Shown here: one piece after another, positions 5,484 through 23,571 of the stretch
Numbering within the stretch: position 1 is the stretch's first letter
Layout: every line of letters starts with the position of its first letter
Origin: Eubacteriaceae bacterium
GTDB lineage: Bacteria; Bacillota; Clostridia; Eubacteriales; Garciellaceae
NCBI GenBank assembly: GCA_012838085.1
Contig: DUPX01000073.1
Location: forward strand, 1 to 34,992
Length of the DNA: 34,992 nucleotides
Direction: 5' to 3'
Position numbers and translations under genes: made by a program
Notes under the pieces: model-generated
Told to the model about the DNA's origin: nothing
Database searches by the model: none
What the model saw: only the letters and a program-made list of their open reading frames with translations

Positions 5484-6593
5484 TTAGGCTAGTTTTACTA
5501 TTTCCAGCACAAGCCTTGCTGCCTTTTCCAGATCCTCAATATGTATATGTTCTTCTAATGTATGGGGTTTTCTCTCACCAACGGCCAAATTAACAGCCCT
5601 TATTCCCTTTTGATTAAATATATTGGTATCGCTGCCTCCTCCCGAGCCCTTAGCTTGAAAATCCAAATTAAGATTTGTAGAAGCTTTTTTAACTAATTCC
5701 ACAATTTCATCTCTTTTATCTATATTATAAGCATGGTATTCCCTAGCTACCTTTACTTCTGCCTTCCCGCCATTCTCCTTAGCTGCATCTTGAATAACCT
5801 TCTCCATATGCTTGCTTTGTAGATTAAGTTTCTCCTCATTTAAGCTTCGGGCTTCCCCCTTAATACTCACTTCAGGAGTTATTATATTAGTGGCCTCTCC
5901 ACCTTGAATTATACCAATATTTGCAGTGGTTTCCTCATCTATTCTAAATAGTTTCATGTTATTAATAGCTTGGGCAGCTATTTTAATTGCACTTATCCCT
6001 TCCTCTGGAGCCACCCCTGCATGGGCCGGTTTGCCTATTATCTTGGCAATTATATTATCCTGGCCTGGACCTTCAATTATTACTTCTCCTGGAGTTCCAC
6101 CGCTATCTAAGACAAAGGCCCTTTTTGATTCTATTCTATCATATTCTAAATTCTTTGCCCCTAATAAACCTACTTCCTCACAGGTGCTAAAGGCTAATTC
6201 AATTGGGCCATGGTCAATATTACTTTCTACTATTACCCTAAGGGCTTCTATTAATGCGGCTATACCCGCCTTATTATCTGCCCCTAATATTGTGGTTCCA
6301 TCTGAATAAATAACTCCCTCTCTTATAGTTGGCTTTATACCTATAGCAGGAGTAACTGTATCTAAGTGACAGCTAAATAATAGTGGGGAACTGTCCTTTA
6401 TTCCTTTGAGTTTTGCTATGATATTTCCTGTATTGCTTCCTGTATCTTTGCTTGAATTATCCCTATATACATCTAATCCTAGTTCTTTTAATTCTTCTTC
6501 AATAAAATCAGCAAATTCCTTTTCCTTTCTGGAGGGACTGCCTATTTTAACATATTTTATAAAACTTTTTACTAACCTGTCTTGATTTACCAT
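5484..6593 (-). CDS. M20-family peptidase, peptidase T-like (tripeptide aminopeptidase type)
   Basis: A dizinc M20 exopeptidase. In numbering from the upstream ATG it shows the metal motif SCHLDT (H81, D83), bridging D111 in GADNKAG, the catalytic pair E144-E145 in STCEEVGLLG, D168 in FVLDSGG, and a C-terminal HTLEEHI histidine. The dimerisation domain sits between the two catalytic halves. The frame opens at ATG 6608, but that codon lacks a ribosome site. ATG 6593 (MVNQDRLV) has GGAG 9 bases upstream and is chosen here. It probably releases amino acids from short peptides and is followed by the M29 aminopeptidase. Substrate preference cannot be read from the sequence. Confidence 0.92.
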   Translation of the reverse strand: MVNQDRLVKSFIKYVKIGSPSRKEKEFADFIEEELKELGLDVYRDNSSKDTGSNTGNIIAKLKGIKDSSPLLFSCHLDTVTPAIGIKPTIREGVIYSDGTTILGADNKAGIAALIEALRVIVESNIDHGPIELAFSTCEEVGLLGAKNLEYDRIESKRAFVLDSGGTPGEVIIEGPGQDNIIAKIIGKPAHAGVAPEEGISAIKIAAQAINNMKLFRIDEETTANIGIIQGGEATNIITPEVSIKGEARSLNEEKLNLQSKHMEKVIQDAAKENGGKAEVKVAREYHAYNIDKRDEIVELVKKASTNLNLDFQAKGSGGGSDTNIFNQKGIRAVNLAVGERKPHTLEEHIHIEDLEKAARLVLEIVKLA

Positions 6594-21430: not shown

Positions 21431-22096
21431 CTAATCACCTTTATATAAACCTGTGGTCCTGCTCACATCCATAACAAATATAATTCCCTTTCCCCTTTTA
21501 TTTGCATCTATGCTGCTTTCTATTGAGCTTACTATTGCTTCTGTATTTTCCACCCTGGATAATATGAGAACTATATCCTTTTCTGGTTCTATATCTATAT
21601 TAAAAAGTTTTGCCGTTTCTTCTGTTCCTGAACCCCTACCATGTATTATAGTACCCCCTGTTGACCCGGCCTTATTGGCTGCTTGGATTACTTCCTCTGA
21701 CATTCCTTTATTTACAATTGTAAGAATAGCTTCATATTTTACCACAAAGTCACCTTCCTTACTCTTTTTTAAATTATGCTTGCCAGAATTTATTTCTAAT
21801 ATTTGTTTCAAGGGAATGGAAAAAAGAATACCATGATTAGGTTTGTTTAGATGAAATTGTTTTTCCAGTTCCTTATGGATATGTTGATCTAGATCACCTT
21901 TAACACCCATTAATACTATTTCTTTTCTGCTCTCATTAAGGCCTAGGAGGGAAAGGACATGACTTCTGACTGTTCCCTTTCCTAAAAGAATTGTTCCCCC
22001 TGTTGCACCAAGCTTTTTTGCTAATTGTATTACCTTAGTAGCCTTCCCACAATCTACAATCACAAAAAGTAAATAAAAATTATCTAGAAGATCCAT
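21431..22096 (-). CDS. Tandem PII-like protein
   Basis: 221 residues with two PII-like ferredoxin-fold domains. The first (about 1-105) has GATGGTILLGKG (30-41) and the second (about 115-221) has GSTGGTIIHGRG (144-155), followed by RGKGIIFVMDV (201-211) and RTTGLYKG at the end. Classical PII proteins are single domains of about 112 residues that trimerise and bind ATP/ADP and 2-oxoglutarate. Here the T-loop region is short, and the uridylylated Tyr51 region is not conserved. It follows a DUF1538 membrane protein by 8 bases, so it probably senses a ligand and controls that partner. GGGAGG is 11 bases before the ATG. Confidence 0.85.
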   Translation of the reverse strand: MDLLDNFYLLFVIVDCGKATKVIQLAKKLGATGGTILLGKGTVRSHVLSLLGLNESRKEIVLMGVKGDLDQHIHKELEKQFHLNKPNHGILFSIPLKQILEINSGKHNLKKSKEGDFVVKYEAILTIVNKGMSEEVIQAANKAGSTGGTIIHGRGSGTEETAKLFNIDIEPEKDIVLILSRVENTEAIVSSIESSIDANKRGKGIIFVMDVSRTTGLYKGD

Positions 22097-22104
22097 CAGT
22101 AAAT

Positions 22105-23571
22105 TTACCTCCCTCTAGTTTTCCATCTATATATTAGCCCTAATGTTTGAACAGCCACCAGTGGTGTCATAGCTACCATAGCAATTATTCCAAATCCATC
22201 TATAAGAAGATTTGCAGTGGGAATAGCATTGGTAGCCCCCTGAGCAAATGCTAATACAAAAGTAGCAGTCATAGGTCCAGATGCAACCCCTCCAGAATCA
22301 TATGCAATTCCTACGAAAATAGAAGGGACAAAAAAACTAAATAATGCACCTAAGGCAAAGCCCGGTAGTAAAAAGTGCCAAAGTTTTAAATTAGGTATCA
22401 TAATCCTTAACATAGAAAAGGCCATAGCAAAAGCAATACCAACAGATAAAGTTAATAATATTACCTTTCGCTTTATATGTCCTGATGTTACCTCTTCAAC
22501 CTGTTCCGTCAAAACATAGACAGCCGGTTCAGCAATAACAATCACCATACCCAATAGAAATCCAATGGCAGGCAATACCCATTTTGCCTCTAAGGCTGCA
22601 ATACCCTGTCCCATTTCCCTACCTACTTCCATAAAGCCAGCATTTACACCTAGCATAAATATAGATAATCCTATATATGTATATAGCATACCCTTTAGTA
22701 TTTTATTTCTACTGCCTTTTTTTAATTTAAATGAAAAATAGTTAAATATTATAAATAATATTAATAAGGGGGCCAAGGTTATTATTGATTCCAAAAGTAT
22801 TTTAGGTAATAAATCCAGATAAGGGCCTATAATTCCCGTATGGTTTTTAAATGCTTCCATGTGACCTTCTAGCTTTACTTTGCCCTTTATAATATTTAAA
22901 AGCATTAGTGCAATAATGGGACCTCCAGAAGCAAAACCCACAAGACCAAAGCTATCTTCTTCGGAACTTTTTCCGCCCTTTAATTGGGATACACCTAAAC
23001 CTAATGCTAGAATAAATGGGGTAGTTATGGCACCTGTGGTAGCACCTGAAGCATCCACAGAAAATGCTAAAAACTCTTCAGATACCATTATTCCCAATAC
23101 TAAGATTAGGGTATAAATAGTGGCATAGGATCTATTTAGGGGGATTCCTAATAATATTCTGATTAATCCATATGCTACAAGTATTCCTACTCCTACTGAT
23201 ACAACAATTAAGACTAGTGGTCCTGATATAATCCCACCAGTAGCCACATTTATTTGTTTGGCTAATATTTGTATATCTGGTTCTGCCACATTTATAAAAA
23301 ACCCTAATATAAAACCTAGCAGTAAAACAAAGCTATACTTGTTTGTTTTAGCGATGCTTTCACCCATTAGGTTGCCTATAGGGGTTATACCAATATGAAC
23401 CCCCATTAAAAAAATTGACAGCCCAATTGTTACTAACATAGCACCGATAATAAAACGAGCTAGCATTTCTATCTCAATGGGAACTAATGAAAAGCTAAGT
23501 ATAATAACTAATATTGTTATAGGTAATACTGAAAATAGTATATCTTTAAATGTTTTTGTTAGTAAGTTCAA
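22105..23571 (-). CDS. DUF1538 membrane protein
   Basis: 488 residues with about twelve or more membrane segments, built from two homologous halves. LSIFLMGVHIG (51-61) repeats as LSIFMLGVNAG (302-312). NVAEPDIQ (94-101) repeats as VIAEPAVY (345-352), and DASGATTGAITTPF (173-186) as DSGGVASGPMTATF (425-438). This two-fold repeat is typical of transporters. The DUF1538 family has no established substrate. It is paired with a PII-like protein. The start is TTG with AAGGGG 7 bases upstream. A transporter of ammonium-like, anionic or metal substrates is possible but cannot be chosen. Confidence 0.88.
   Translation of the reverse strand: MNLLTKTFKDILFSVLPITILVIILSFSLVPIEIEMLARFIIGAMLVTIGLSIFLMGVHIGITPIGNLMGESIAKTNKYSFVLLLGFILGFFINVAEPDIQILAKQINVATGGIISGPLVLIVVSVGVGILVAYGLIRILLGIPLNRSYATIYTLILVLGIMVSEEFLAFSVDASGATTGAITTPFILALGLGVSQLKGGKSSEEDSFGLVGFASGGPIIALMLLNIIKGKVKLEGHMEAFKNHTGIIGPYLDLLPKILLESIITLAPLLILFIIFNYFSFKLKKGSRNKILKGMLYTYIGLSIFMLGVNAGFMEVGREMGQGIAALEAKWVLPAIGFLLGMVIVIAEPAVYVLTEQVEEVTSGHIKRKVILLTLSVGIAFAMAFSMLRIMIPNLKLWHFLLPGFALGALFSFFVPSIFVGIAYDSGGVASGPMTATFVLAFAQGATNAIPTANLLIDGFGIIAMVAMTPLVAVQTLGLIYRWKTRGR

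Follow-up and report, generated by a model that had tools for sequence, protein, structure and literature searches.

The window examined here is a stretch of 34,992 nucleotides (nt) from an Eubacteriaceae bacterium (GenBank assembly GCA_012838085.1, contig DUPX01000073.1), and our subject is a pair of neighboring genes that encode a double DUF1538 membrane protein and a double PII-like protein. Both genes, and all features located by coordinates within them, are on the minus strand. The membrane gene (22105–23571) specifies 488 amino acids (aa) from a TTG start located behind GGAAGGGG. The PII gene (21431–22096) specifies 221 aa and follows downstream after a gap of 8 nt, with a Shine-Dalgarno-like GGGAGG, read directly from the letters, at 22108–22113 within the 3′-terminal part of the DUF1538 gene. 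A sequence-only reading of this DNA had described a two-fold-repeat membrane protein directly followed by a protein with two PII-like domains and a reduced T-loop. Both open reading frames (ORFs) are present, and each part of that description is borne out by the analyses below.

Pfam family PF07556 (DUF1538) matches the membrane protein in two stretches with an E value of 9.7e-130 and a score of 430.6 bits (cut-off 22.6). The first half (residues 1–240; 22852–23571) and the second half (residues 241–488; 22105–22851) each contain seven hydrophobic segments, with hydropathy peaks in an alignment of 55 proteins at residues 20, 49, 87, 128, 154, 186 and 219 and at residues 267, 300, 342, 379, 415, 438 and 471, respectively. 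An AlphaFold2 model of the protein has a predicted local distance difference test (pLDDT) score of 90.9 and a predicted template modeling (pTM) score of 0.89, with helix breaks at 179–182 and 431–432. Two acidic positions are near-invariant. E97 of an A-E-P motif (23281–23283) and its partner E348 (22528–22530) occupy a position that is E in 93–100% of the members of each of five DUF1538 domain groups, and D173 of DASGATTG (23053–23055) and its partner D425 of DSGGVASG (22297–22299) occupy one that is D in 100% of all five. Together with a basic residue at 138/389 that accompanies them, these acids are a plausible candidate for a two-fold ion site.

The smaller protein carries an N-type PII domain (residues ∼9–99; 21800–22072) and a C-type PII domain (residues ∼124–216; 21449–21727). 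Pfam PF00543 recognizes only the second (residues 124–215, E value 4e-14, 53.2 bits against a cut-off of 25), the first domain scoring 19.8 bits in a genome search and thus falling below that cut-off. A profile built from related proteins detects both. By sequence, the search for solved relatives returned weak PII matches only. The AlphaFold2 model, built from 54 sequences, shows two PII folds (pLDDT 86.8, pTM 0.84) and matches 161 PDB chains at E ≤ 0.001, those shown being mostly PII. Residues 121–216 align with GlnK3 (3ta1) at Z 10.7, and the best chain for residues 1–102 is CPII (5ds7) at Z 9.8. The scores of CPII and of PotN (7o4x, Z 10.1) are level with those of canonical PII proteins. 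The T-loop is indeed reduced, as the conserved G and the conserved K are 18 steps apart in the profile compared with 23 in Archaeoglobus fulgidus GlnK1, a shortening of about five. The signature of the C-type family (G147, T149, R154, G155, G157, H159/E160, K173 and G204) is kept, with the window's domain deviating at two signature residues (H159 to E and P201 to R).

This arrangement resembles GlnK-AmtB in that a PII protein is encoded beside a membrane transporter and presumably acts on it. It differs from GlnK-AmtB in its partner, which is a DUF1538 protein and not AmtB, and in a PII protein that has two domains per chain, a short T-loop and none of the canonical ligand residues. CPII and SbtB, which are PII-like proteins linked to carbon, likewise have a PII fold without the nitrogen signature, but they belong with other transporters, and identity to CPII 5ds7 is 14%. 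PotN of Lentilactobacillus hilgardii is also a Bacillota PII-like protein beside a transporter; it differs in having 18% identity, a single domain and a transporter of another type.

The DUF1538-PII pairing is conserved well beyond the window. Among the window's genome and 40 relatives, DUF1538 and PII genes are both present, side by side, in the same 15 genomes, and neither is present in the other 26. This 41-genome test used a PII query of the window's subtype, some of its 26 negatives belong to the same family or genus, and its counts take no account of kinship; it is the least selected of our pairing tests. In a scan of species genomes, PII adjoins or is fused to DUF1538 at 57 of 63 related loci. 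A family search found DUF1538 in 101 of 299 Bacillota genomes, and at 84 distinct Bacillota places, drawn from the 81 higher-scoring of the 100 other matching genomes, PII adjoins it at 82. In Spirochaetota a DUF1538 match occurs in 27 of 149 genomes, 26 of them over the cut-off; these 26 contributed 28 clusters to the count, each with PII. Proteobacteria were sampled through plasmids. Of nine plasmid records with a DUF1538 match, five were inspected, and a "P-II family nitrogen regulator" lies next door in all five. The spacing is short, with 2–63 nt (median 23) between the transporter stop and the first PII codon in the 41 pairs measured among the related loci. At 13 whole loci, all of one lineage, the second DUF1538 half has a PII domain fused behind it, which fits a cytoplasmic C-terminus of the transporter. 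Because the window's own 1.70-megabase genome has only three PII genes, chance adjacency to DUF1538 would be rare. The sequence-only reading had staked its PII-transporter pair in part on the gene pairing recurring in other genomes, and both this recurrence and the fusions speak for it. Adjacency, co-occurrence and fusion argue that the PII protein is a direct partner of the transporter.

In these counts and below, D denotes a DUF1538 domain, P a PII domain and a slash a gene border. Rows dropped from the locus count are L001–L003, L072–L075 and L196–L198 (own genome); L106, L121, L123, L127, L129, L134 and L135 (the same places refetched or taken wider); L109, a second locus, with PII, of a genome already counted through another; L132, a 37-residue match with a stop that is below the cut-off; and L197, a second locus (D/P) of the L057 genome. 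Overlapping L104 and L160 were taken as one place, leaving 84 of 85, and L060 and L066 were kept though a contig end cuts their DUF1538 part. A search of viral contigs found no relative among 19 stretches. Six unannotated records of a phage collection, H19–H24 (two "Listeria phage" and four fecal "Bacteriophage sp."), encode DUF1538 and are probably bacterial DNA inside phage records.

The database name "P-II family nitrogen regulator" and membership in PF00543 would fit a PII protein that is an ordinary nitrogen regulator merely sharing an operon. We consider this most improbable, as the two genes are present and absent together across the 41 genomes and are elsewhere fused, and as neither amtB nor glnA is found in the annotated neighborhoods of the five plasmids. 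The features that mark a canonical GlnB or GlnK, a full-length T-loop bearing the modified tyrosine (Y51) and a Q39, are also lacking.

As to what the transporter carries, only one DUF1538 system has been tested, the founding pair UmpAB from Halomonas zhaodongensis. UmpA and UmpB have seven segments each and co-precipitate as a hetero-dimer, catalyze Na+(Li+, K+)/H+ antiport in vesicles of E. coli KNabc with an optimum at pH 9, and confer salt and alkali tolerance (PMC5484666). The same UmpAB clone, serving as a K+/H+ control, aided growth in 0.9 M KCl (PMC5996927), and a table of families predictive of pH includes DUF1538 (PMC13255231). UmpAB and the window protein share homologous halves in the same order, with seven segments each and with the acids and the arginine. 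Tested alone, the first half scores 95.1 bits with the NCBIfam model of UmpA and 89.8 with that of UmpB, and the second half 78.3 with UmpB and 74.5 with UmpA, all far below the cut-offs of 490 and 500. UmpAB differs from the window protein in being encoded by two genes instead of one fused gene that scores far below the equivalog cut-offs. By analogy with UmpAB, the window protein is probably a monovalent cation/proton antiporter. The sequence-only reading had held that no substrate or ligand is established for the pair, which is partly wrong in that it overlooked the antiport of UmpAB.

Most known partnerships of PII proteins with transporters concern the uptake of nitrogen or carbon. Accordingly, the carrier might handle another substrate, such as bicarbonate, ammonium or an organic ion, with the PII protein acting as a carbon or nitrogen valve like SbtB or GlnK and the antiport of UmpAB being a side activity or lineage-specific. 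The closeness of the first PII domain to CPII 5ds7 and the weak UmpA and UmpB scores would suit this. Set against it are the exchange of monovalent cations for protons by UmpAB (PMC5484666), the lack of any gene for nitrogen or carbon transport that recurs around the related loci, and the missing canonical 2-oxoglutarate contacts. We thus regard another substrate as unlikely and return to monovalent cation/proton exchange. UmpAB was active in E. coli without its native neighbors, which makes the PII partner look regulatory and not catalytic; the published 4.2-kilobase (kb) clone ends with umpB, and PII goes unmentioned there (PMC5484666).

The distribution of lysine and arginine (K/R) in the loops bears on topology. 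In fused DUF1538 proteins the K/R bias (inside minus outside) is +6.9 ± 1.4 for first halves (n = 18) and −8.8 ± 1.7 for second halves (n = 18). The window protein has +3 in its first half, the sign for an inside N-terminus, and −6 in its second. In split pairs, the first genes have +3.5 ± 1.5 and the second genes −6.9 ± 2.2 (n = 31 each). With such opposite bias, the fused protein is most likely built as an inverted repeat of 7+7 segments whose two termini both lie inside. Single-domain DUF1538 proteins, each accompanied by a single PII gene, show a bias near zero (−0.3 ± 1.5, n = 11; range −2.0 to +1.4 with some loops omitted or made wider). A near-zero K/R bias marks dual-topology proteins (PMC3962082). 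Seven of the 11 come from genomes with no other DUF1538 match, and these would therefore have to work with themselves. From these charges we strongly predict that single-domain DUF1538 proteins have dual topology. The window's own genome (G000) holds such a candidate dual-topology half-transporter, a single DUF1538 gene with a single PII gene on contig C77 (L196:4597–5660). The dual-topology families EmrE/SMR, CrcB/Fluc, DUF606 and UPF0016 likewise combine unbiased singles, pairs of opposite bias and fusions (PMC3962082; PMC4067407 for UPF0016). The DUF1538 unit differs in having seven segments and a PII partner, the dual candidates tabulated in PMC3962082 having 3–4 segments.

Phylogenetic trees add an order to these forms. 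In the DUF1538 tree, singles, first halves and second halves make three well-supported groups, and the fused halves nest within the corresponding split genes, in both cases beside loci L082 and L102, as expected from a progression from single to pair to fusion. The PII tree places the single P of D/D/P systems with the C-type domain; N-type domains make up a separate group (support 97), evolving faster and with long branches, and the fused third P domains another (99). By this grouping, duplication of the PII partner came later than the origin of the transporter pair.

The layouts observed are D/P, D/D/P, D/D/P/P, D/D/PP, DD/PP, DD/P/P, PP/DDP, P/DD/PP and, in spirochetes, DD/PPP, with the window's type, DD/PP, being the commonest. 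Two P per two D halves is the majority state. One P (D/D/P) is found at nine Bacillota loci, two more with a tandem set and two Alphaproteobacterial plasmids, and three P at 13 PP/DDP loci, one locus with P and PP, and five spirochete DD/PPP clusters. The 11 single-domain loci are 1:1. The PII partner is thus nearly constant, whereas two D halves can be accompanied by one, two or three P domains. From the two-fold repeat of both proteins the sequence-only reading had suggested matched stoichiometry. One PII domain binding one DUF1538 domain would account for the 1:1 and 2:2 systems, both of which occur in the window's genome. As a general rule it is rejected by our domain census, in which 2:1 and 2:3 are also common; the two halves are moreover predicted to be inverted and to turn different faces to the cytoplasm, and solved PII proteins are trimers. 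One-to-one binding is thus very unlikely. Three P domains in one chain or operon could form a single ring, and three copies of a two-domain chain could form two rings.

Several variants of the pair stand out individually. The whole D/D/P set is repeated in tandem at L136:3958–7676 and L144:2653–6228, and in an Aerococcus-like metagenome-assembled genome PII genes flank the transporter on both sides (P, DD, PP; L046:3666–6171). Spirochete DUF1538 proteins (L121, L124–L126, L128, L130, L176–L178 and L194) carry long inserts and reach 546–737 aa; their PII partners have 371–443 aa, with three recognizable PII domains in five clusters. Besides the DD/PP of the window and the D/P on contig C77, the window's genome has a lone P on contig C8 (L074:910–1788; ∼6144–6440 of G000:C8), a C-type PII gene 183 nt behind a DUF1622 membrane protein gene. 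In the 41 genomes it is the one PII match that does not lie beside DUF1538. This protein keeps the H159 and P201-type signature residues that the window's C-type domain has lost, and its closeness to the second PII domain in a relative's two-domain protein (69%) exceeds that to the window's (57%). Speculatively, it could supply a third member of the ring.

We are inclined to read the two genes of the window as one regulated ion carrier, a PII-gated monovalent cation/proton antiporter. The DUF1538 protein would be a secondary transporter of 14 segments, built as an inverted repeat whose N- and C-termini are both cytoplasmic. Like UmpAB, it would most likely exchange Na+ and/or K+ for H+, and E97/E348 and D173/D425, at the helix breaks, would be the likely sites for ion and proton. 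The two-domain PII protein would assemble PII-type rings of three domains on the cytoplasmic face of the transporter, and the ring would slow or release transport according to a small ligand. Of this picture, the genes, the modeled folds, the recurrent pairing, the fusions elsewhere and the opposing charge bias are observed, and the topology, the ring, its docking, the direction of control, the ions and the ligand are inferred. Our best guess for the ligand, offered tentatively, is an adenine nucleotide or related signal that reports energy state and is bound in the same PII cleft, here by the C-type domain, with the N-type domain being mainly structural by now. A different role for the PII protein, that of a permanent structural subunit or assembly factor and not of a ligand-driven switch, would agree with the fixed pairing, the fusions, the lost canonical phosphate contacts and the fast-evolving, long-branched N-type domain. 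The C-type pocket is nevertheless highly conserved (R154, G155, G157, E160, K173 and G204), and UmpAB works without its native neighbors (PMC5484666), which leaves a purely structural role rather improbable.

A number of observations weigh against the PII-gated antiporter and the inverted-repeat series on which we place it. No PII gene is present at L007, L008, L035 and L063 (flanks of at least 1.6 kb on both sides), at L043 (only the downstream side seen) or at L039 (contig end), nor, of the Bacillota places, at L143 (more than 2 kb seen on each side) or L182 (contig end). The six related loci and L143 indicate that the transporter can stand alone. The whole protein, a query of two fused halves, reaches 156.4 bits with NF041627 (cut-off 490) and 153.7 bits with NF041628 (cut-off 500) of the UmpA and UmpB models, and E. 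coli was found in a control search to have PII proteins of its own, so that UmpAB was not strictly PII-free there. Sequence searches found no solved relative of DUF1538, and in a Foldseek comparison of the model with solved folds none of 297 matches reached E ≤ 0.001 (best 8.1e-3). The weak matches, to transporters with elevator or hairpin folds, include EAAT1 (Z 4.3), GltPh, VcINDY and, with 170 residues aligned at Z 5.4, NCX_Mj; UraA/SLC26 is absent from the matches shown. For the ligand, Q39, K90, R101 and R103, which we take to be the canonical GlnB contacts for adenosine triphosphate and 2-oxoglutarate, are not kept in C-type domains by either the GlnK1 alignment or the column table, where position 39 is mostly H, position 90 is I and the C-loop arginines are absent. 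This weakens the nucleotide idea and makes binding in the classical way unlikely. For the topology, loop charges of second halves are less clean than those of first halves, two "outside" loops having ∼1.5 K/R each, the bias in the first genes of split pairs is weaker and amounts to +1.8 once tails are left out, the charge rule is a statistical one, and the single-domain proteins are one clade, so that p-values for their bias do not count independent events. For the order of forms, both trees are quick ones supported by the Shimodaira-Hasegawa-like approximate likelihood-ratio test only. The DUF1538 tree is unrooted and uses 75 of 111 domains; L013 and L057, split D/D loci near fused ones, were left out of it and may have been split secondarily. 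For PII, the tree rests on 98 columns and 138 rows, with long branches that meet, and the window's own domains are not among the rows.

The surroundings of the pair yielded no further partner. No third gene recurs in the flanks over many lineages, the clusters seen being mainly antisense ORFs of the pair and lineage synteny. Rfam gave no match on the window, and on sets of 16, 20, 18 and 20 loci it gave seven matches, none of them a leader of a DUF1538 gene. A cyclic di-guanosine monophosphate aptamer (c-di-GMP-I) at L137 was considered as a leader, 350 nt above the DUF1538 gene, and rejected as it lies on the opposite strand. Matches to sRNA_1300, an Rfam family named from Enterococcus, occur ∼1.5–1.7 kb upstream of the pair in clostridial genomes (L010:2282–2481 and L062:2114–2314). 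A promoter and terminator scan found as many sites as in shuffled sequences.

Our literature search, which covered open papers including those that name DUF1538, found no report of a DUF1538-PII pair, and none of the papers naming DUF1538 speaks of a PII neighbor; the sole "PII" string in one such paper (PMC7221264) belongs to a peptide motif. PII-transporter pairs as such are already known, and what is new is the DUF1538-PII pair, its PII partner of one to three domains and the series that includes half-transporters. A wider reading that we put forward as possible is that the DUF1538 family has been caught in all stages of an inverted repeat, from seven-segment half-transporters that insert in either orientation and work as antiparallel homodimers with one PII domain, through oppositely biased pairs, to fused 14-segment proteins. 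Alongside, a non-canonical PII subfamily gating monovalent cation/proton exchange would have gone from one to two to three domains, which would give a ready-made ring, and finally been fused to the transporter.

Under the label "P-II family nitrogen regulator" these proteins have probably been filed with nitrogen control despite their constant ion-carrier neighbor. If PII proteins do gate Na+/K+/H+ exchange, PII signaling would extend to pH and ion balance, a role outside nitrogen and carbon control. The DUF1538 family offers a tractable natural series on the origin of inverted-repeat transporters, including a seven-segment half-transporter, and its PII proteins of one, two and three domains form a set for studying how symmetric rings turn asymmetric.

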